A stretch of 38,125 bases of DNA from the NCBI GenBank assembly GCA_016840125.1, contig JAEOSY010000252.1:1-38125 (forward strand). The letters are read 5' to 3'. Below are positions 4,503 to 18,601 of this stretch, piece by piece (positions within the stretch are counted from its first letter, which is position 1; every line of letters begins with the position of its first letter). The notes below the pieces were generated by a model that worked only from the letters and a program-made list of their open reading frames with translations, ran no database searches and had not been told where the DNA came from. The position numbers were made by a program, and so were the translations under genes. Origin of the DNA: Candidatus Helarchaeota archaeon. GTDB lineage: Archaea > Asgardarchaeota > Lokiarchaeia > Helarchaeales > HEL-GB-A.

Positions 4503-6809
4503 ATGCTCCGTAAGAAATTTATTCCTATTTTTTTAATGGTTGCTCTTTTATTTCCGTTGATTTTACCATTTAACATGAATGTGGAAGCTCAGACTGGAAC
4601 AACACCACAATTCATGTCAGGAAATTATAGTGGTAACGCGTCTATGCTTTATTATGATGAGTGGAACCTTCCAGTCTCTTGGGTGGATAATCGATCTACT
4701 GATCTTTATGCTCCTAACATAACAAACACCCAAAGCTATGTTCTCACTGGAAACAACCTTGAAATCCGTGCAGATAGAATCACAGAAGAGCCCTTTACAT
4801 CAATGCAGGTCATAGCAGACAATCAAACCGCTCGAGTTAATATATCAAACGCTGTAAGGGTTGCCCAAGAATTTAACGTTTCCAGATTAGTTACAATTGA
4901 TAGCATAAATCTCTTTTTGGAACATAGTTTATTGAGTAATTATTTTGGTATGATTACGATCATGGAAGCAGATCTTAATACAACCGTAATACAATCAAGC
5001 GAACAATGGATTTCCAGTGTAGTATCAGGTTGGTATTCATTTTGGATGTATGGTCATATTTTAGAACCAAATACAACCTATTATTTCATTTTTGAGATGT
5101 GGTCCCAAGTAGGTATGGGTGCAATGCCCATAGGAAATCACTCCTGGTTCGCTGAACAACACAATAGTTCAAGTTATAATAAGGGTGCATCCCTCACATA
5201 TAATGGCTCGGCGTGGAATCCCATTTCGAATGATGCCTCAACAGACATGTTATGTAGATTCTATTATTACAAGGTGATAGACCCTAGTGCAGTTAATCTC
5301 ACATTCTATATTGATGGACAGTCCAAACCCTATCAAAGACGAATCGCCGGATGGGGCGGCGGGTACGAATGTTATTATAACATGAGGTTTTCCACCCCGC
5401 CTGTTCAAGATATCAATTTAACCATTACCTCGAACACAACGCTTACAAGTGCTAACTTCTTCATTAGATTATTGTATGTTTATATAGTTCCAGCTAGTGG
5501 ATCTTATAATGCAACTATCAGTAGAATTGAATGGACAATGGATTATCCTCACCGCTACGTCGAAGCGTGGGCTTTCCCCGAGCAGTGGTTTGCCTTTGAA
5601 TCGGATTGGGATTACGTGGAATTCCTGGATGAATACGGTTCAGAGCCGAGTGATATATATTTTGGCCCGTTAACTGTATATAATCAATCTTATTATGGTT
5701 TATTTCAATTACCCTTTATGGGTCCACCATTAGACTATGGCGATTACACCGGAGTTTTCACCTCACCAAATTACTGTCATACTATTCTAGGGAAGGTAAA
5801 AGGTGAATCCGGGTTTCAAACAAAATCCTCATTTGAATTGGGTGATTCTGTAAAATTAGAAGCCTTGATAGTAGATACTAACAACAATCCAATTTCTGGC
5901 GGAAATGCTACCGTTAACTTCACCTCTCCCACTGGTGAATTGATCTATTCTAATACCACTCTAACTTCAATAAATGGGCTCCTTAGCACCACCGAATTTG
6001 AAATTGGGGATGATTTTGAAACTGGCTTTTATACTGTTTCTGTATTTTGGACCGATGGCGTCGAAATAGGGTTTTATACCCTTCAAATTGAAGTAACCGA
6101 GCCCCCTTCATGGTTATGGTTATATATAGTATTGGGTGTGGCTTTCGGTTTGGCTATCGTAGCCATCCCACTAGCTACATACACTCGAAGAAAGATAAAA
6201 ACCCGGAACTGGGAAAAACACCTGCAAAATCTATTCATCCTCTCTAAAGATGGTCGTAGTATCTACGGGTATTCCTTCGGGATTGAAATCCAAGATCCCG
6301 CCTTGATCAGTGCTGCATTAGTGGCAATTACCGCCTTTATCTCTGATGCCGTTAAAAGCAAAAAGGAGCTTCGGGTTATCGATTTGCAGGATAAAAAGGT
6401 CATACTCAGCCATGGGACGCATACTACAACTGCGTTAATTGCGGTGAAATCCTTCCCTGTTATCATTAACCGAACTGAAGAATTTACTCAAGCTTTCGAG
6501 AAACAATATGGTGGGAAGGTTGCTGCATGGCGTGGCGATACAAAAACTTTCAAAGGCGTTGATGCACTTATCCAAGACTATTTCCCCGTTAGCATGGAAG
6601 AACGTATCACCCGCGGTGTAAAATTAAAACTCATTGAAACTAAGGAACTCCTCCAATCTGCCGACGATCCTATTGTCATTATCCAAATTATGAAAAACGT
6701 TACCCAACTCTTATCTCGCTATCGTGAAATTATTGAACGATACTACATGAAAGATTATGCTGAGCTAATTGAAGCAGCCGAGGACAAAATGAATACTATT
6801 GAACTCTAA
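4503..6809 (+). CDS. Large ectodomain membrane protein with cytoplasmic longin/roadblock-like tail
   Basis: 768 residues from ATG 4503. I prefer this over the upstream in-frame GTG at 4473 because GAGGG sits 6 bases before it and a signal peptide follows at once (residues 1-30: lysines, a long hydrophobic run, then 'NVEAQ'). Residues ~31-530 are extracellular, rich in aromatic residues and N-glycosylation-like NxT/S sites. The last ~90 before the membrane look like an Ig/macroglobulin-type beta domain ('GDSVKLEALIVDTNNNPISG'). One transmembrane helix covers ~536-560, followed by basic 'TRRKIKTR'. The cytoplasmic part opens with 'LFILSKDGRSIYGYSF' (from ~577) and runs as a mixed alpha/beta domain to ~690, then a helical tail. 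This tail resembles those of the next two genes. It is probably a receptor or surface protein that passes a signal to an inner longin-like module. The topology is well supported; the domain name is inference and the ligand is unknown. Confidence 0.7.
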   Translation: MLRKKFIPIFLMVALLFPLILPFNMNVEAQTGTTPQFMSGNYSGNASMLYYDEWNLPVSWVDNRSTDLYAPNITNTQSYVLTGNNLEIRADRITEEPFTSMQVIADNQTARVNISNAVRVAQEFNVSRLVTIDSINLFLEHSLLSNYFGMITIMEADLNTTVIQSSEQWISSVVSGWYSFWMYGHILEPNTTYYFIFEMWSQVGMGAMPIGNHSWFAEQHNSSSYNKGASLTYNGSAWNPISNDASTDMLCRFYYYKVIDPSAVNLTFYIDGQSKPYQRRIAGWGGGYECYYNMRFSTPPVQDINLTITSNTTLTSANFFIRLLYVYIVPASGSYNATISRIEWTMDYPHRYVEAWAFPEQWFAFESDWDYVEFLDEYGSEPSDIYFGPLTVYNQSYYGLFQLPFMGPPLDYGDYTGVFTSPNYCHTILGKVKGESGFQTKSSFELGDSVKLEALIVDTNNNPISGGNATVNFTSPTGELIYSNTTLTSINGLLSTTEFEIGDDFETGFYTVSVFWTDGVEIGFYTLQIEVTEPPSWLWLYIVLGVAFGLAIVAIPLATYTRRKIKTRNWEKHLQNLFILSKDGRSIYGYSFGIEIQDPALISAALVAITAFISDAVKSKKELRVIDLQDKKVILSHGTHTTTALIAVKSFPVIINRTEEFTQAFEKQYGGKVAAWRGDTKTFKGVDALIQDYFPVSMEERITRGVKLKLIETKELLQSADDPIVIIQIMKNVTQLLSRYREIIERYYMKDYAELIEAAEDKMNTIEL

Positions 6810-6810
6810 C

Positions 6811-6824
6811 TTTTTCTTTTTTTT
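6811..6824 (+). terminator. T-rich stretch between convergent genes
   Basis: A run of 14 bases, 13 of them T, directly follows the stop at 6809, and the next gene ends from the other strand at 6840. Archaeal transcription often ends at such U-runs without a hairpin. Confidence 0.4.
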
Positions 6825-6839
6825 GAAAGAAGATAAAAC

Positions 6840-7967
6840 TCAGTTGGTTTCAAAGGTTTTAAAATGTTTTTTTACTAGTTCTTCCATTTGCAGAATGTTT
6901 GTTTTATCCTTTTCACTCAAACTTTGTTCCTCAAGCAGATTAACACTCATCGTGTCTTCAATAAAATCCTCAAAAAGTTCCTCAAATTCGTCAATAAAAT
7001 TGTTTAACTTATTGTAGATTTGATTGTTAGCTTCCCGAGTAAATAATAATCCAAACACTTTCTTACCGTAATAGAACTGCATTTTTAGTTTTCCAAAATC
7101 CATTGTTCGAAGTATTGTATTATATTCCTCTTTGATTATTTCTTTAATGCCATGGGAGATTGCATAAAGAAAGCCTCCAATTAGATATCGAATCATATTA
7201 TCATCTTTAAGTTCATCTGAGGCCTCAAATTCATATGTATATATCGTTTGCCCATTATTTCTAAGGATATATAGGCTCTTATAAGCGAAAGATGAACCTA
7301 TCTGAACCAACAACTCCGGATACTTTCTATTTAGATAGATACTCATTCCTATTGCTCCAAATAAAGAAATAAAGGAGAACTGTCTAATTTCAGTTAGAAT
7401 AATCACCCCAAATAATGCTAAAAGGTAATATAAGAGCGTTGCTAAGAAGGCAAGCATTGGATAACGAAGATGCTGTTCATAAATTTGTAAAAAATTTTTT
7501 ATGGTTATAATCCCAAGATACAGAACTGGACCTAAAAATACCAAGGCAGCTGGAAGTAAAGTCAGAAAATCTAAGCCGAGGTATGGTCCTCCCAGTTGTT
7601 CTTTGACATTTATCAAATAATAAACCATCGCAAAAATTGATGCAATAAGGACATAACCCATAAATACAATTTTTTCATATCTTGGACGTTTTTCTCCTCC
7701 AAGTGATATCATCTGAAAGTACCCATGACAGGTGAGACCAAATGCGATAATACATATTACCAGAATTATGTAGTAAAGAATATGTTCCGGATTGATTAAA
7801 TATATGAATAGACTAATAAGTAAGGCAACAATAAAAACTTGGAGCATAACCCCTAACTTCTCCAGCTCTGTTTTATGCTGCTGGTAATTTAGGTAATTTA
7901 AAATCATTAATACGGAATTTAATCCAATAGCGACCCCACACAAGATTAAATTTAGCTCAAAAGACAT
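6840..7967 (-). CDS. Seven-helix membrane protein with cytoplasmic longin-like domain (copy 1)
   Basis: 375 residues. Hydrophobicity gives seven likely transmembrane helices at about 5-25, 39-58, 62-84, 99-120, 134-155, 171-193 and 197-212; basic loops suggest N-terminus out and C-terminus in. The cytoplasmic part (~228-340) begins 'YKSLYILRNNGQTIYTYEF', continues with a helix ('FLYAISHGIKEIIKEEY'), then strands ('RTMDFGKLKMQFYYGKKVFG', 'LLFTREANN') and an acidic helix. This order and pattern fit a longin or roadblock-like fold. An acidic/helical tail follows. The next gene upstream is a tandem paralogue with the same layout. The topology recalls 7TM sensor domains joined to histidine kinases, but no kinase is present. 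No recognised family; it is probably a sensor coupled to GTPase-type signalling. Confidence 0.65.
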   Translation of the reverse strand: MSFELNLILCGVAIGLNSVLMILNYLNYQQHKTELEKLGVMLQVFIVALLISLFIYLINPEHILYYIILVICIIAFGLTCHGYFQMISLGGEKRPRYEKIVFMGYVLIASIFAMVYYLINVKEQLGGPYLGLDFLTLLPAALVFLGPVLYLGIITIKNFLQIYEQHLRYPMLAFLATLLYYLLALFGVIILTEIRQFSFISLFGAIGMSIYLNRKYPELLVQIGSSFAYKSLYILRNNGQTIYTYEFEASDELKDDNMIRYLIGGFLYAISHGIKEIIKEEYNTILRTMDFGKLKMQFYYGKKVFGLLFTREANNQIYNKLNNFIDEFEELFEDFIEDTMSVNLLEEQSLSEKDKTNILQMEELVKKHFKTFETN

Positions 7968-8033
7968 TCAATAATCCCTTTCAATTTTCTTAGTTAAAGA
8001 TATTTTGTAATATAGAAATTGATCTTGAATTAT

Positions 8034-9149
8034 TTAGAATTTAAAATAGACTTGTAAAAGATCATCAATTTTCCCTTTGATCGTTTCAGTTATTTCTTTT
8101 CCCTCCATTAAAGATATACTTGTTTTATCCTCTGAAAATTCTTTAAATTCATCTTCAAATTGAGTAATAAAACGTTCTAATCTATTATAAATTACGTTGT
8201 TGGCTTCCCGCGAAAATAAAACTCCGAAAATGTGGTGGCCATAATAAAATAGCATTTTTAAATTTCCAAAATCCATTATTCGCAACTGCGATTCATAATG
8301 CTCCTTTATAATTTCTTTAATACCATGAGTAATCGCATAGATGAATCCTCCAATAAGATACTGGATCGTTTTTATATCCTTGGTGTCATCAGTAATCCGT
8401 TCAAATTCATAAGAGTAAAGTGTTTGACCATTATTTCTGATAACGAACAAACTCTTATAAGCAAAGGTGGAATGAATTAGAGCCATGAAATTATGTTTTT
8501 TATTGAGAAATATAATACCTCCAATTGAAGCTACTATATCTAAGGAAAGTGCAAAAATACGTATTTCTATCGAGTAAATAACTAAATAATGAGCAAGTAC
8601 ATAACAAAATAACAATGAAAAGAAGATAAAATATGTAATACGTATCTCTTTCTCGTATAATTTTACATAATATTTTAATGAAATTGTAATAATATGAATA
8701 AGAGGTAGCACTAATAAAATAATAGGGATTATTAGTGCCCATTCATTCACCCCAAAATAGAATCTTCCCTCAATTTCCACCGTTCTAATATTTAAAAGTA
8801 GAATACCAAGTAAGATAGTGAGAATTATTGCCTCATAGATCAATATCACAATTTTCTCTCTTCTAGGACGAATTTCTCCACTACCTTCTAGGAGAGAAAA
8901 AAATGTATAGGTGGCGAAAAAGAAGCTAAAGGGGATTGTTAATAAGGTTATTTGATAGGTCAATTCATCTTGTACCAAGAAATTAATAAAATAGAGAGCC
9001 GATCCTAAAAAAAGGACAAGAAGAAGCACGACCGCAATTTTTTCAATTTGAGCCTTGTGTCTTCGATAAATTTGATACATTATAATTATGATGATGATAT
9101 CTAGAACCAAACAGCTTACTAATATTATTAGTATTTGTTCAAAGATCAT
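8034..9149 (-). CDS. Seven-helix membrane protein with cytoplasmic longin-like domain (copy 2)
   Basis: 371 residues, a tandem paralogue of the protein at 6840-7967, separated from it by 66 bases. Helices are likely at about 5-26, 38-58, 64-86, 99-120, 137-157, 171-192 and 197-215. The membrane part has diverged strongly, while the cytoplasmic part is much better kept: 'YKSLFVIRNNGQTLYSYEF', 'IKTIQYLIGGFIYAITHGIKEIIKEHY' (shown in part), 'MDFGNLKMLFYYGHHIFG' and 'FSREANNVIYNRLERF'. Selection therefore acts mainly on the inner domain, as expected if that domain binds a shared partner and the outer parts differ in input. The two genes are likely one transcription unit read from the AT-rich gap at 9150-9258. 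The start ATG 9149 is the first in frame. The family is not recognised. Confidence 0.65.
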   Translation of the reverse strand: MIFEQILIILVSCLVLDIIIIIIMYQIYRRHKAQIEKIAVVLLLVLFLGSALYFINFLVQDELTYQITLLTIPFSFFFATYTFFSLLEGSGEIRPRREKIVILIYEAIILTILLGILLLNIRTVEIEGRFYFGVNEWALIIPIILLVLPLIHIITISLKYYVKLYEKEIRITYFIFFSLLFCYVLAHYLVIYSIEIRIFALSLDIVASIGGIIFLNKKHNFMALIHSTFAYKSLFVIRNNGQTLYSYEFERITDDTKDIKTIQYLIGGFIYAITHGIKEIIKEHYESQLRIMDFGNLKMLFYYGHHIFGVLFSREANNVIYNRLERFITQFEDEFKEFSEDKTSISLMEGKEITETIKGKIDDLLQVYFKF

Positions 9150-9258: not shown

Positions 9259-10098
9259 ATGGCAGTAAAAAGTGTGATCTTCTATTTCTCCCAACAAGGC
9301 TCCACCAAACGTATCGCCCAACATATTGCTCAGGGGTTGAATATAGGAGATCACTCTTGTGATCTAGTACAATTCACCAAACTTCAGAAGGATCTCGAAT
9401 TAATCAAAGGATTTAGTTTTAAAAAGTATGATTTAATTGGCTTTGGAACCCCTGTCTATTATTTTTACCCACCACACCATCTTTTTGAAGTGTTGGATAC
9501 ACTTCCCGATTTGGCCTATGCACAAGGATTCCTGTTCTGCACCAGCGGAGGAAATCCAGGCGCAACGCTATTCAAGCTCCAGCAAATTTTGAAGAACAAA
9601 GGTCTCAAGATAATTGATGGGTATGACCGCTGGAAAGGATTAGACCAGCATCGGTGCTATAGTCACTTCCCCCAATCAGCCTTGCCTAGGAGTGTAGGAC
9701 ATCCCACCATAGGAGAACTGAACGAAGCAAAGTCATTTGGTAGAGCCTTAATAGAAAAAGTATTATCCTCCGAAACTCCTGAAAAAACAGATTTTTGGGC
9801 AAAGGACAATCCGTGGGCTAAAAATGGGTGGGAGGGACAATCTGCGCCGTTCATGGAGAAATGGTTTCCGGAGTTTCATTTGAATGAAGACAAATGTACC
9901 GAATGTGGTGAATGCGCAGACCGATGTCCCATCGATGCAATTGTCTTGGATCCCTTTCCAAAGTGGGTAAAAGAATGTGATCGATGTTATTTATGCGACT
10001 TGTATTGTCCCGAACAAGCGATCGAATGTGATTGGTCCAAACAAATTGCCTTTATGGATCAAATTCTGGAAAATGCCCAAAAAGGAAAGAAAGTCTAA
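9259..10098 (+). CDS. EFR1-type flavodoxin-ferredoxin fusion
   Basis: 279 residues. The N-terminus (1-~165) is a flavodoxin-like FMN domain: 'IFYFSQQGSTKRIAQHIAQG' matches the phosphate-binding loop, and 'YDLIGFGTPVYYFYPPHH' and 'FCTSGGNPGAT' match the isoalloxazine loops. The C-terminus carries two [4Fe-4S] clusters, 'CTECGECADRCP' from C213 and 'CDRCYLCDLYCP' from C240. This layout is the EFR1 family common in anaerobic archaea and clostridia, a soluble electron carrier or small reductase. GAGGT precedes the ATG. It stands alone between signalling genes, convergent with the roadblock gene 8 bases further on. Its redox partner is unknown. Confidence 0.85.
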   Translation: MAVKSVIFYFSQQGSTKRIAQHIAQGLNIGDHSCDLVQFTKLQKDLELIKGFSFKKYDLIGFGTPVYYFYPPHHLFEVLDTLPDLAYAQGFLFCTSGGNPGATLFKLQQILKNKGLKIIDGYDRWKGLDQHRCYSHFPQSALPRSVGHPTIGELNEAKSFGRALIEKVLSSETPEKTDFWAKDNPWAKNGWEGQSAPFMEKWFPEFHLNEDKCTECGECADRCPIDAIVLDPFPKWVKECDRCYLCDLYCPEQAIECDWSKQIAFMDQILENAQKGKKV

Positions 10099-10106
10099 TT
10101 ATTTTT

Positions 10107-10817
10107 TCATACTACTCTGAGCACTTTTAGCCATTTCTTCTTTTCATATTTCCGAATAACCATATTGACTCTAAGGATTGCATAGAGTGTTTCATCACAG
10201 ATATCATCAACAGAATATGTCCCGTCACAGTATTGGAGAATTTTCACATCCTCTAGGGGGATCTTCTCTTTCCCAGTTAACGGTTTGATTAATAGCGGGA
10301 CTCTCTTGAGATCTTTGCGCTTTGGCTTGACTGGGCGCGCTATTGGTATAAAGGGTACGGATTCCTCAGCTTGACATGAAGCATCTTGCATATCAGCAGT
10401 AGCGATTTTGGGGGCTAATTTCGCCATCACTTCATCTAATTTAGATGCCCATTCCCGGATTTTTGCCTTTAAGCTGAATAATTGGGCGCTGGGTCCCTGC
10501 TTTAGATATATTACTACAATCACCTTTTCTGAAATCTTAAAGAATCCGAGATTAATGCCACCAAATGGAATACTACAGTCACCCAAAGCTAAATTTTGAA
10601 AATTGTCCCGTACGTAGTTTTGAATAAAACATATATACTCATCGAAGGCGGGTGTATCTATATGCAGGAAGTTCCCTTGTGCATCAATTATGGAAATATA
10701 TGCCCTTGTGGCAAGAACTTCAGAAAATGAGATCACAATTTCCTTACTTAGTTGATAGATTTCCTCCTTACTCTTCAGACTTAATTCGATAGTAGTAGAG
10801 GGGGGAAGACTGCTCAT
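10107..10817 (-). CDS. Roadblock/LC7-like domain fused to a C-terminal winged-helix-like module
   Basis: 236 residues with a strong AAGGAG ribosome-binding site before ATG 10817. Residues ~18-150 have the alternation of roadblock/longin domains: a long first helix, 'AYISIIDAQGNFLHID', a helix, then 'CSIPFGGINLGFFKISEKVI' and a last amphipathic helix. A charged, proline-containing linker follows (~150-185). The last ~50 residues ('ILQYCDGTYSVDDICDET', 'VNMVIRKYEKKKWLKVLR') look like a small winged helix and match the repeated module in the protein at 37440-38125. Roadblock proteins of Asgards are thought to act as platforms or regulators of small GTPases such as those at 15595-18601. No membrane segment. 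The fold calls are by eye. Confidence 0.6.
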   Translation of the reverse strand: MSSLPPSTTIELSLKSKEEIYQLSKEIVISFSEVLATRAYISIIDAQGNFLHIDTPAFDEYICFIQNYVRDNFQNLALGDCSIPFGGINLGFFKISEKVIVVIYLKQGPSAQLFSLKAKIREWASKLDEVMAKLAPKIATADMQDASCQAEESVPFIPIARPVKPKRKDLKRVPLLIKPLTGKEKIPLEDVKILQYCDGTYSVDDICDETLYAILRVNMVIRKYEKKKWLKVLRVV

Positions 10818-10922: not shown

Positions 10923-11693
10923 CAAGCTTGCTCAGAAGTCCTGCACATTCAGTATAAACTTACAAAAATTACAGAATTTACAAAAATTACTAGCGCAACC
11001 AATCCGGATACAGACGGGGATGGCTTATCAGACGGCGCGGAGATTGATATCTATTTTACAGACCCCACATTCTGGGATACCGATGGCGATGGTTTATCCG
11101 ATTCGGATGAACTCGGAAATAATACGAACCCGAACTTAGCAGATAGTAATTATGACACCCTTAAGGACGGTTTCGAGATAAGTTATGGGACCGATCCGCT
11201 TGAAGATGATACGGATGGCGATGGTTTGAATGATTATGATGAGATCATGGTGCATTCCACCAATGCGACCACTATCGATACTGACGGGGATGGATTATCC
11301 GATGCTGATGAAATCCAGGCCTATTTGACCAACCCTAACACAAATGATACAGATCATGATACTTTTGCTGATGCAAATGAAATTACTTTCGGAACTAATC
11401 CCAATCTAATGGACACCGATGGGGATGGTTACATAGATGGCGAATGTATACTTGTTCAAGTGGTATCAGCTTTTTTTGATACTGCACAAGTTGTATTGGG
11501 TTCAGTTAGTTGGTATCAAAATGCAATTGTAAGGGGCTTTAACAATATCCCCTATCTTCCCTCGGTTCGATATGCTCTTCGAATCTTGGTGTTTAAATAT
11601 TTTAAATTTAACGAAAAGGCACGAATGGCCCTCTTTAATAAATTACTGAAATTTTTTATCAAAACCGTGGAGAACGCTATAGGATGTGAGTAA
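10923..11693 (+). pseudogene. Remnant of a thrombospondin type-3 repeat (calcium-binding) surface protein
   Basis: The open frame from 10923 to the TGA... stop region at 11693 (stop TAA, 11691-11693) encodes about six repeats of the type 'DTDGDGLSDxDE...TNPN', the calcium-binding thrombospondin type-3 motif of surface proteins. The frame has stops at 10908 and 10920 and contains no ATG, GTG or TTG before the middle of the repeats (first TTG at 11226). There is no signal peptide and no ribosome-binding site. After 'DTDGDGYIDG' the sequence changes abruptly to an unrelated hydrophobic/basic tail of about 80 residues ending near the next gene. I read this as a 5'-truncated gene. It overlaps the start of the following gene by 8 bases. 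A very short expressed form from TTG 11226 is possible but would begin inside a repeat. Confidence 0.55.
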
Positions 11694-15592: not shown

Positions 15593-15607
15593 GGTCAAGC
15601 ACGAACT
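15578..15607. repeat. Short tandem duplication across convergent gene ends
   Basis: CAAGCACGAACT occurs at 15578-15589 and again at 15596-15607, 18 bases apart. The first copy encodes the last residues of the symporter, the second the last residues of the minus-strand pseudo-GTPase. Confidence 0.6.
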
Positions 15608-16146
15608 CGTGGTCGTAACCCCTTTTGAATTACACAATTTAAGCATAGATTTGTAAATAATTGATCAATTCCAGAATTATTTTTAATTGAAATTTCGATA
15701 GTCGATGACTCTGGTCTATACGGAAAACAGATTTTTGGAGCTAATGCTTCAATTTCTTCATGAGATATGACTCTTTTATCCGAATCACTATTGTCCGCAG
15801 CTATTACTGAAATAGTTTGACCACAAGCTTCAGTTACTTCCTCATGCCAGTTTGTTAGATGTTCAAAACTCGCCCTATTACTTGTATCAAAGAGATAAAT
15901 ACAATTTGCCACACCCAAATAGTATTGATGGCGATTAATTGAAAACCGCTCTTTTGGACTCATAAACCAGACCTGCAACATGATTATTATCCCCTCGACT
16001 TTTACCAACTTTAAATTAAACGCGACGCCAATTGTCATTAGTGTGTCTTCGTTGAAATCTGGGTTAATTCGTCTCATTAGCCCTATTCCGTCTACCTCAG
16101 GATCCCCCACAATGAAAGTTTTATACAAATAATCGTAATATGACAT
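15595..16146 (-). CDS. Pseudo-GTPase of the Rab/Ras fold (single domain)
   Basis: 183 residues that align along their whole length with the intact GTPase at 17819-18601, but the nucleotide-binding motifs are lost. The P-loop is GDPEVDGIG instead of GDAGVGKTS, so the invariant Lys and Ser/Thr are gone. WDTAGQE is replaced by WFMSPKE, and NKxD by an 'AADNSDSD' segment. The switch I Thr ('MTIGV') and the Rab-like core ('YYLGVANCIYLFDTSNRASF', 'NWHEEV') remain. It is most similar to the second domain of the 402-residue neighbour (same DGxG P-loop). The intact frame and the conserved core argue for function without GTP hydrolysis, perhaps as a scaffold or decoy. The C-terminus has no prenylation motif. 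Its start is ATG 16146. Confidence 0.75.
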   Translation of the reverse strand: MSYYDYLYKTFIVGDPEVDGIGLMRRINPDFNEDTLMTIGVAFNLKLVKVEGIIIMLQVWFMSPKERFSINRHQYYLGVANCIYLFDTSNRASFEHLTNWHEEVTEACGQTISVIAADNSDSDKRVISHEEIEALAPKICFPYRPESSTIEISIKNNSGIDQLFTNLCLNCVIQKGLRPRVRA

Positions 16147-16526: not shown

Positions 16527-17735
16527 TCACTCTTTGTCTGTTGTTGAAACTTTGAAGAGTCTCTGCCAGTTTTGGCCTTTTTGGTCTTGTAACCAGTTCC
16601 GATAGAGAAAACCTAGACATACGGTAGCTAATAAGCGATCAATTCCCGCATCATATTTGATTGAGATTTCGATAGTCGATGCTTCTGGTCTAAATGGAAA
16701 ACCGATTTTTGAAGCTAGGGCTAGAATTTCCTCTCGGGATACGACTCTATTATCCGAATCAATATTGCTCGCACCTATTACTGAAACGATTTGACCACAG
16801 GATTCTGTTACTTCCTCATGCCAGTTGGTTAGGTGTTCAAAACTCGCCCTATTAGCTACATTAAAGAAATAAATACATGCTACCGAACCTTTGTAAAAAC
16901 TAGGGCGGAGATAAGAAAAGCGTTCTTCTTGACTGATCAACCACATCTGGAGCTTGAATTTTATCCCTTCTATAACAACCGGTTTGACAGCAAACGTCAC
17001 CCCAATTGGTGGGTTTTCGTCGATAGTTGGAGTAATTTGTCTAAGTAATCCTAGTCCATCTACCTCCGCATCCCCTACAAGTACAACTTTTAATAAATGA
17101 TCGTAGTCTTTGATTATTTTCTCAGGAACACTTGGTAACTGTGTTAAAAACTCTGGAGGTGGGGTAATGTCCGGTTGAACTACTTCAGGTTGTTCTGGGG
17201 GAATTAAACCTTTGAAATAGGCAAAAAACCAGCATATATTCGTGAATAATTGCTCTATTCCATAATCATCTTTGAGTGATAATTCGAGCGCGGAAGCTTC
17301 TGGCATGTAAGGATAGCAGATCTTTGAGGCTAATTCTTCAATTTCCTCATTAGATACCGCTCTATTATCAGAATCAATGTTCGTTGCAGCGATAACTGAT
17401 ATAATTTCACCAGTATTTTCCGTTACTTCTTTATGCCAGTTAGTTAGATGTTCAAAACTCTCCCTATTTGTTACGTCAAAGATATAAATACACGCCACTG
17501 TACCCCGATAATACAAAGGTCGAAGGAAGGCAAAGCGCTCTTGGCTGGAAGCCATCCAAAGCTGCAATTTAAACCTTTGACCTGCAACGTCTATCGTCTT
17601 AATAGCGAACTCTAATCCAACCGTCATCAAGGATCCATCGTTGAAATGAGAACTAACCTTTTTCATTAACTCGGTCCTGCCTACGTCTGCATCACCTACG
17701 ATGAAAACTTTAAACAAATGATCATAGTCTGACAT
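16527..17735 (-). CDS. Tandem double pseudo-GTPase
   Basis: 402 residues made of two Rab-like domains (about 1-180 and 215-390) joined by a proline-rich linker ('PEQPEVVQPDITPPPEF'). Domain 1 has P-loop GDADVGRTE (Lys to Arg) and WMASSQE for WDTAGQE. Domain 2 has GDAEVDGLG and WLISQEE. In both, NKxD is replaced by TNID/SNID and the SAK motif by SLK/SIK. The surrounding core ('YYRGTVACIYIFDVTNRESF', 'SFEHLTNWHEEVTE') is well kept. Domain 2 is the closest relative of the 183-residue protein downstream. Nucleotide hydrolysis is unlikely; binding by domain 1 (R instead of K) would be weak at best. A two-domain protein of this kind could bridge partners. There is no membrane helix and no C-terminal lipid motif. 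It is divergent from the intact GTPase gene across an 83-base gap. Confidence 0.8.
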   Translation of the reverse strand: MSDYDHLFKVFIVGDADVGRTELMKKVSSHFNDGSLMTVGLEFAIKTIDVAGQRFKLQLWMASSQERFAFLRPLYYRGTVACIYIFDVTNRESFEHLTNWHKEVTENTGEIISVIAATNIDSDNRAVSNEEIEELASKICYPYMPEASALELSLKDDYGIEQLFTNICWFFAYFKGLIPPEQPEVVQPDITPPPEFLTQLPSVPEKIIKDYDHLLKVVLVGDAEVDGLGLLRQITPTIDENPPIGVTFAVKPVVIEGIKFKLQMWLISQEERFSYLRPSFYKGSVACIYFFNVANRASFEHLTNWHEEVTESCGQIVSVIGASNIDSDNRVVSREEILALASKIGFPFRPEASTIEISIKYDAGIDRLLATVCLGFLYRNWLQDQKGQNWQRLFKVSTTDKE

Positions 17736-17818: not shown

Positions 17819-18601
17819 GTGAAAAGGTTGGCATCTCAAATAATTCATAATACTTTCAAGCTCATAATTGTAGGTGACGCTGGGGTCGGGAAAACCTCAA
17901 TTGTGACTAAATATGCAAAATCTCACTTTAAGAAATCTTACCAAATAACAATTGGGGTAGATATATTTACAAAAACTGTTGAAGTACCTACCAATGGAGA
18001 TCTACGCCGTGCTAGACTCTCAATATGGGATACTGCGGGACAAGAACGTTTTTCATATGTAAGACCATCATTTTACAGAGGGGCTGCAGGAGGTTTAGTG
18101 GTATTTGATTTAAGTAAGAGGCAAAGTTTTGAAAATACGCCAAAATGGATGGAGGAAGTCAAGAAAGCACGTGTTTCAATACCTCAAATTCTGGTTGGGA
18201 ACAAATTGGATCTACATGACCGAGAAACTTCTTATGAAGAAGCACTAAACTTTGCATCTGAATTGAATATGGAATATTTTGAATCGTCTGCTAAGGATAA
18301 TCAAAATATTTTCGAGATCTTTCAGAGGTTAGCTGAACTTGTATTAATTCGTCATCTTCAAGAAGTTGAACAAGATTCTGCTGAGGAACAAAAATATGTT
18401 GATGATATCAATAGATACTTGGTGTTAGCTCAACAAGCCTATGAGGACCGACAAGACCAAAAATTTCAAGAAGCTCTCATCCTACTTAAAAAAGCTCAAG
18501 CCTACGCGCAGAAGATAGTATTTCAGGAAGGCTTGGAATGGATCGAAAAGGAAACTCAACTTATTACACAGATTTTAAAGCAACAAGAGCCCCCCGGATA
18601 G
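17819..18601 (+). CDS. Rab-like small GTPase with helical C-terminal extension
   Basis: 260 residues. All five G motifs are intact: P-loop GDAGVGKTS (19-27), switch I T44 in 'TIGVD', WDTAGQE (70-76), GNKLD (127-131) and 'ESSAKD' (155-160). 'SYVRPSFYRGAAGGLVVFDL' and 'SFENTPKWMEEV' are Rab-type. Beyond ~175 there is an unusual extension of about 85 residues, rich in Glu, Gln and Lys and predicted helical, much like a TPR- or coiled-coil-like hairpin ('LVLAQQAYEDRQDQKFQEAL'). No C-terminal cysteine is present, so membrane binding by prenylation is excluded; a partner or the extension must localise it. The start is uncertain: GTG 17819 or TTG 17828. It is likely a GTP-driven switch in membrane or cytoskeleton regulation. 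Substrate partners may include the pseudo-GTPases and the longin/roadblock proteins nearby. Confidence 0.9.
   Translation: MKRLASQIIHNTFKLIIVGDAGVGKTSIVTKYAKSHFKKSYQITIGVDIFTKTVEVPTNGDLRRARLSIWDTAGQERFSYVRPSFYRGAAGGLVVFDLSKRQSFENTPKWMEEVKKARVSIPQILVGNKLDLHDRETSYEEALNFASELNMEYFESSAKDNQNIFEIFQRLAELVLIRHLQEVEQDSAEEQKYVDDINRYLVLAQQAYEDRQDQKFQEALILLKKAQAYAQKIVFQEGLEWIEKETQLITQILKQQEPPG

Follow-up and report, generated by a model that had tools for sequence, protein, structure and literature searches.

What do three neighbouring membrane proteins of an Asgard archaeon do with the same domain at their inner ends? The question is raised by contig JAEOSY010000252.1 of Candidatus Helarchaeota archaeon (GCA_016840125.1), of which a stretch of 38,125 nucleotides, here called the window, was analysed as a whole. 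The stretch contains three adjacent open reading frames (ORFs), P1 on the forward strand and P2 and P3 on the reverse strand, all confirmed at the positions given in a first-pass annotation made from the sequence alone. P3 and P2 lie in tandem with P3 upstream and a gap of 66 bp between them, and both converge on P1. The annotation described a single-pass protein with an ectodomain of about 500 residues and two seven-helix proteins that share a cytoplasmic longin- or roadblock-like domain. The analysis indicates that the three domains are homologous, that their predicted fold is that of a longin, and that they belong to an Asgard superfamily of longins joined to membrane parts, which may couple receptors to small GTPases.

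On the evidence of profile comparisons, the C-terminal domains of P1, P2 and P3 are homologous, far beyond what chance would produce. When the P1 family (77 rows) was aligned by hhalign with the family of P2 and P3 (10 rows), the probability was 97.0 and the E-value 8.5e-11 over 104 columns. Profiles built without the window's own rows retrieved all three proteins: that of the P1 family (76 rows) matched P3 at 8.5e-12 and P2 at 8.3e-8, and that of the other family (8 rows) matched P1 at 1.7e-6, while the best values among 900 shuffled sequences were 0.049 and 0.11, respectively. Cross-matches between the two families in other Asgard loci reached 4.7e-25. The common inner domain seen in the first-pass annotation is thereby borne out. 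P2 and P3 are 39% identical when aligned, and the P3 longin scores 1.3e-37 against a profile that includes P3 itself. In protein searches, the P2/P3 family comprised 10 proteins, two of them from the window, and the C-terminal part of P1 matched 79 proteins at E ≤ 0.001, of which every named one was from an Asgard archaeon and the closest named relatives from Helarchaeota. A profile search of the window at E 1e-3 found the domain in no ORF other than these three, and family-library scans gave no match above any curated cut-off for P1, P2 or P3.

The comparison of predicted structures with known folds, which had been proposed as a check, places the domain among the longins. The models of P1 and P2 match solved longins over most of the domain and have the expected order of secondary structure elements, b1-b2-a1-b3-b4-b5-a2(-a3). 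The leading fold matches were longins of SNARE, AP and COPI proteins, with Sec22b, Ykt6 and VAMP7 best or near-best, and the tri-longin Rab guanine-nucleotide exchange factors (RabGEFs) Mon1-Ccz1, Fuzzy-Inturned and HPS1-HPS4 ranked high in both searches. A longin describes the domain better than the roadblock of the earlier description: MglB and other roadblocks, whose fold is related to that of longins, ranked below them, and the Pfam family PF03259 (Roadblock/LC7) had no match in P1-P3 and one, at 0.047, among 62 relatives. The membership in the longin class rests on the fold, since no Pfam longin family scored above its cut-off. The Pfam longin leads among the relatives were weak, Sybindin being the most frequent and Fuz_longin_1 appearing in 3 of the 62 seven-transmembrane-helix (7TM) longin proteins, and the nearest longin-type sequence relatives in the PDB were, again weakly, the TRAPP longin subunits. 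The longin fold and the membrane topology described below are considered nearly certain.

The membrane parts agree with the first-pass description, as judged by hydropathy for P1 and P3, by the structure model for P2 and by the alignment of P3 to P2. The P1 ORF (4473-6809) encodes 778 residues counted from its GTG, although the start is probably the ATG at 4503, giving 768 residues, because several homologues begin at the corresponding residue. Residues 1-550 of P1 contain 20 N-glycosylation sequons, and the putative membrane-proximal Ig/MG2-like domain was matched by Pfam MG2 (7.1e-5) and Big_1 (6.4e-4), both under the Pfam cut-offs. The transmembrane (TM) helix is followed by six lysines or arginines in 19 residues and preceded by none in 19, as the positive-inside rule predicts for an inner part of about 200 residues. 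A weaker hydrophobic stretch (residues 606-629, 1.6-1.9) corresponds in the structure model to helix a1 of the longin. The helices modelled for P2 span residues 2-31, 34-58, 62-89, 96-120, 134-162, 165-190 and 195-215. Among the 62 relatives, the mean number of lysines plus arginines was 3.5, 2.5, 3.6 and 1.8 in loops 1, 3, 5 and the C-terminal stretch, versus 0.8, 0.8, 0.4 and 0.8 in the N-terminus and loops 2, 4 and 6. By the same rule, the 7TM part is predicted to have its N-terminus outside and its C-terminus inside, with the longin in the cytoplasm, as is also predicted for P1. The P2 model and this charge pattern thus suggest seven TM helices and a cytoplasmic C-terminus, as in G protein-coupled receptors (GPCRs); a search of the 62 members with the Pfam 7tm families gave no match at E ≤ 0.1.

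The survey of Asgard genomes for the same domain on other membrane parts, also proposed with the annotation, showed that the trio is not exceptional. A domain profile built from 18 rows, with about 19 candidates scored per genome, had matches at E ≤ 0.001 in 224 of the 227 Asgard genomes searched. There were at least 127 matches in a helarchaeote genome, G001 (150 of 213 candidates scored), and 29 among 79 candidates in a lokiarchaeote genome, G122. In 80 regions taken from these two genomes, 107 ORFs carry the domain. Simple hydropathy scanning classified 49 of them as 7TM-like, that is, with 5-8 segments (45 in G001 and 4 in G122), two as having more than nine TM segments and 25 as lacking any; the remainder were 20 mixed ORFs and 11 in a loose ectodomain-TM-longin class that takes in some soluble-looking ORFs. 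The scan placed no TM segment after the longin in any of the 107. A full-length 7TM-longin profile of 62 rows, with up to nine candidates scored per genome, matched 223 of 227 genomes at E ≤ 1e-10, and at least 85 genomes have near-full-length matches (85 of the 87 genomes among the 150 matches listed, not all of which were checked for TM segments). One stop codon lies within the matched stretch in 15 of the 150 (e.g. G209:C222, G201:C36, G214:C1); the fetched loci of such matches (L189-L192) still contain ORFs of 333-348 residues with a TM part and a longin, and the stop may therefore sit at an end of the match. The default filters of HMMER missed upstream members of the gene pairs described below that appeared with the filters off, and counts obtained under them are likely to be underestimates.

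The partners of the domain are varied. MFS-type proteins with 10-12 predicted TM segments end in a longin at L149:4011-5630 (G001; Pfam MFS 3.5e-18) and L044:286-1896 (2.9e-21), with weaker MFS matches in L041 and L042 and, judged by the number of TM segments, also in L038-L050; these could be a class of transporter-receptors. Other parts named by Pfam are TPR, HTH and a prenyltransferase toroid, with HTH or TPR in soluble members. The ORF at L035 (G082:C57) combines a Y_Y_Y domain, a TM segment, a longin and a winged helix (wHTH), and looks like a sensor whose longin stands where a kinase might be expected. The domain has thus multiplied greatly in Asgard archaea and occurs on 7TM, single-TM and MFS-type membrane parts as well as on soluble ones; given its presence in nearly all genomes and in many architectures, the trio in the window exemplifies a design that is very common in these archaea. 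G001 also encodes eleven paralogous ORFs of 1112-1137 residues with a C-terminal longin (e.g. L128, L129, L150), one of which was scanned and gave a sub-threshold TPR match.

The tandem arrangement of P3 and P2 recurs as well, with 19 same-strand tandem pairs among 87 distinct 7TM-longin ORFs. A tree was inferred from all 87 and examined for the 12 pairs whose members lie no more than 50 bp apart, which leaves the window's own pair (gap 69 by that measure) outside the set; bootstrap values were not fully settled and several forks stayed open. In 10 of the 12, the upstream members form their own clade (97/96) and their partners fall in another (99/96), together with eight unpaired rows. Corresponding subgroups recur in the two clades, which suggests an old two-gene arrangement that was retained in several genomes. 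P3 and P2 are a separate pair whose members group together (100/98). TRAPP and Mon1-Ccz1 build their longin platforms as heterodimers, and by analogy the pairs may encode heteromeric receptors whose longins pair in the same way.

Several observations link the family to small GTPases. Five ORFs of 289-326 residues have an N-terminal longin of the same family followed by a Ras-type domain in a single chain. Among 30 upstream-downstream pairs, labelled with profiles of clade members, 24 show the upstream ORF (the other six, whose upstream side lies outside the fetched DNA, were dropped), and this is a Ras GTPase in seven, six of them on the same strand, where the next ORF is any of at least 90 residues and some are probably not genes. 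With two further pairs that have no Ras gene upstream, the count becomes 7 of 26, against a chance expectation of about 0.5 estimated from one GTPase per 42-56 kb. In G001 and G122, the Ras model had 103 and 79 matches; since 13 of 14 control genomes also have matches to it, other GTPases may account for the weaker ones. Proximity was tested with the matches listed (longin 124 of 127 and 26 of 29, Ras 82 of 103 and 68 of 79) in 15 class-by-distance tests per genome. Within 2 kb of Ras genes lay 10 of 46 G001 ORFs of 340-410 residues, a class that contains a few soluble longins (2.4 expected; 0/2000), and 4 of 12 G122 ORFs of at least 500 residues (0.8 expected; 20/2000). In 3 of 13 P1-type loci (L001, L009, L011), a Ras gene follows one gene further on, after the P1 orthologue and on the same strand.

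These findings can be read as a signalling chain. P1, P2 and P3 would be receptors, or sensor or anchor proteins, of the cell membrane that combine a variable outer part with a common cytoplasmic longin. Sensing, or the setting of location, would fall to the outer part, which in P1 is a large secreted ectodomain and in P2 and P3 a GPCR-like bundle with the N-terminus out and the C-terminus in. The longins would pair, often as heterodimers from two neighbouring genes such as P3 and P2, and the pair would be a platform for a small Ras/Rab/Rag-like GTPase, the nucleotide state of which would be changed, or which would be kept at the membrane, as TRAPP Bet5-Trs23 and Mon1-Ccz1 do with Rabs. We favour this reading because of the longin-Ras fusions, the weak similarity to RabGEF longins and the Ras genes upstream of some pairs, and we consider that the entire chain, from receptor to the binding and regulation of GTPases by often paired longin tails, is somewhat better than an even prospect.

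A number of results weigh against it. The five models of P1 are of uneven quality, with predicted local distance difference test (pLDDT) scores of 78.0, 64.1, 63.8, 57.1 and 54.5; the Pfam longin-type families have no match in P1-P3 at E ≤ 1, and the matches of the relatives beyond Sybindin and Fuz_longin_1 are weak and scattered. Longin domains also have roles apart from GTPases, in SNAREs and adaptors, and neither a ligand nor a known receptor family was found. Two of the 12 close pairs, at L073 and L108 (7879/8978), break the two-clade pattern. Four of the seven Ras-flanked pairs are closely related (63-72% identity for Ras, 62-71% for the upstream and 57-68% for the downstream members), three of these loci sharing flanking genes and the fourth being cut by a contig end, and two of the seven share one Ras gene; about three of the seven are therefore independent. 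The enrichment of 7TM-longins within 300 bp of a Ras gene in G001 is modest (6 of 45, 1.3 expected, as high in 31 of 4000 rotations, counted with the listed G001 Ras matches), G001 ORFs of at least 500 residues show none (2 of 34 within 2 kb, 1.5 expected), and none of the three G122 ORFs of 340-410 residues lies within 2 kb of a Ras gene. The nearest GTPase gene in the window is about 6.4 kb from P3, and none adjoins the trio. A Ras gene was present in one of 14 further longin regions, 5.8 kb off (12 of the regions have a 7TM-like ORF and several are short), and in 3 of 20 additional 7TM-longin regions, in none as a co-directional next-door gene. The adjacency is a minority arrangement, supportive in places and not a defining trait, because the link is mostly absent from these other regions and from the window.

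The same data allow other readings. The TM parts could merely position longin platforms at the membrane, to which GTPases, coats or ESCRT parts would be recruited for membrane remodelling, with no signal from outside. Many longins of eukaryotes act at membranes and have no sensing role, the top fold matches are SNARE, AP and COPI longins, and Asgard ESCRT-related proteins join Vps28-C, adaptin appendage and longin domains (PMC11188069). For such a role, however, one helix would suffice, whereas the 45 ORFs of G001, paralogues whose 7TM-like parts diverge, the large conserved ectodomains and the MFS-type and Y_Y_Y fusions look like variety of input, and we regard a purely anchoring function as unlikely. 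Information could also flow from inside to outside, if the longin were an effector that reads GTP-bound GTPases and gates the TM part as a transporter, channel or receptor. A longin behind an MFS-type transporter would fit the control of transport, and the longin-Ras fusions suggest contact without telling its direction; the nearest sequence relatives, weak leads as they are, belong to exchange-factor complexes that act on GTPases rather than read them, which makes this direction quite improbable in our view.

The domain might, finally, be a PAS-like module for dimerisation or for sensing small molecules, unrelated to GTPases here. GTPase neighbours are missing at most of the 7TM-longin genes looked at, soluble members carry HTH or TPR parts, and longins have been placed in the PAS/GAF superfamily, many members of which interact with GTPases (PMC4917890). 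This is hard to reconcile with the longin-Ras fusions of the same family and the pairs with Ras upstream, and both fold and sequence searches pull towards the longins of trafficking and RabGEF complexes; we hold it to be very unlikely. The signal-to-GTPase chain remains the reading that we prefer.

Compared with known systems, the trio resembles longin SNAREs (Sec22b, Ykt6, VAMP7) in being membrane-associated. The longin of SNAREs is N-terminal to the SNARE helix, whereas in the trio it is C-terminal to the TM helices, and P1-P3 had no SNARE match in Pfam, the only SNARE-relevant search made. Tri-longin RabGEFs are soluble eukaryotic heterodimers of paralogues with several longins per chain, and the heterodimers Mon1-Ccz1, Fuzzy-Inturned and HPS1-HPS4 recall what the upstream-downstream pairs suggest here. 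The TRAPP longins (Bet5/TRAPPC1, Trs23/TRAPPC4; Pfam Sybindin) share the fold and, unlike the trio, are soluble complex subunits without a TM or receptor part; a possible counterpart of a TRAPP- or Mon1-type heterodimeric platform is seen here in the tandem paralogues, the members of which fall in two clades in 10 of the 12 close pairs. The heterodimeric longin core of TRAPP touches Rab1 (PMC10933270). GPCRs and microbial rhodopsins are also among the closest known systems. The conservons (CvnA-D) of Actinomycetota follow a broadly similar plan, with a membrane sensor, an MglB-type roadblock and a Ras-like GTPase encoded in one operon (PMC13343842), and a title cited there likens them to G protein-coupled systems. 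The conservon sensor is histidine-kinase-like and its roadblock separate, whereas here the sensor part and the longin are one chain, with a GTPase gene beside only some; co-encoding of a sensor, a longin-class part and a Ras-like GTPase in the manner of conservons was not found within the window.

The longin and roadblock proteins already described from Asgard archaea, and the fusions of these with GTPases, belong to the same phylum and the same fold class as the trio. The composite genome of Lokiarchaeum has 41 longin-like domains, five of them fused to Arf-like GTPases (PMC4917890), and in MK-D1 a roadblock or longin is combined with 26 of 74 GTPases (PMC10933270). An ESCRT survey lists longins with Vps28-C and adaptin appendage, and TPR, Ig-like and HTH as additional domains (PMC11188069); longin and NPRL2-like longin are given as enriched families (PMC9834061), and a transporter survey contains a single mention of longin, which it counts as a signature protein of Asgards (PMC7997004). 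The accessible text of PMC10933270 and PMC4917890 does not describe TM helices joined to Asgard longins, and the word transmembrane is absent from that of the former; longin is absent from the text of PMC12872458. Within the open-licence literature, in part as excerpts, no report of a longin joined to multi-pass membrane parts was found. Longins, roadblocks and GTPase fusions in Asgard archaea are already known; for the multi-pass membrane proteins with longin tails, proof of the link to GTPases would argue for a new class of receptor.

The features of the locus are collected below.

Table 1. Features of P1-P3 and GTPase genes in the window
Feature	Position	Strand	Residues	Basis or remark
P1, ectodomain - single TM - longin protein	4503..6809	+		ORF opens at GTG 4473
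P1 signal peptide / N-terminal hydrophobic segment	4503..4589	+	11-39	hydropathy
P1 extracellular part	4590..6101	+	40-543	about 500 residues, hydropathy
P1 membrane-proximal Ig/MG2-like domain	5841-6044	+	457-524	sub-threshold Pfam
P1 transmembrane helix	6102..6185	+	544-571	hydropathy
P1 longin domain	6216..6590	+	582-706	model; order b1 b2 a1 b3 b4 b5 a2 a3
P1 conserved helical tail	6591..6806	+	707-778	model and homologue alignment
P2, 7TM-longin protein, downstream pair member	6840..7967	-		375 aa
P2 seven-helix membrane part	7323..7964	-	2-215	structure model
P2 longin domain	6855..7286	-	228-371	structure model
P3, 7TM-longin protein, upstream pair member	8034..9149	-		371 aa
P3 multi-helix membrane part	8499..9149	-	about 1-217	hydropathy; aligns with the seven helices of P2
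P3 longin domain	8103..8468	-	228-349	profile matches
GTPase ORF	15598-16146	-		profile search
GTPase ORF	16530-17735	-		profile search
GTPase ORF	17819-18598	+		profile search

The middle one of the three GTPase ORFs encodes a protein of 402 residues in which two Ras-type GTPase domains (residues 8-167 and 215-367) share one chain, flanked on both sides by single-domain GTPases. The receptor genes are adjoined by an EFR1-family flavodoxin-ferredoxin fusion (9259-10098, +; NCBIfam 6.2e-26). It is followed by a 236-residue protein (10107-10817, -) with no family above cut-off, the first 150 residues of which are roadblock/longin-like by eye, and a short ORF (11226-11693, +) has DTDGDGLSDADE-type repeats that by eye resemble calcium-binding thrombospondin-3/dockerin repeats.

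The control of the very numerous small GTPases of Asgard archaea is one of the unsettled points in accounts of how eukaryotic trafficking arose, and a membrane superfamily whose inner longin most closely resembles those of Rab exchange factors offers a concrete candidate for the input side that is missing, and one that can be tested. The superfamily may also give a reason for the abundance of Asgard longins, many of which would be tails of membrane proteins and not trafficking parts in the eukaryotic sense. We put forward tentatively, as a possibility that falls somewhat short of an even chance, that Asgard archaea have their own extensive receptor system, in which a genome encodes as many as dozens of receptors of the 7TM and single-pass kinds, a good part of them heterodimers, with a longin output acting on Ras/Rab-like GTPases. 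If so, outside signals would be coupled to the GTPase switches from which the control of eukaryotic trafficking grew, and receptor output domains could be the source of the eukaryotic longin RabGEFs (TRAPP, Mon1-Ccz1, Fuzzy).

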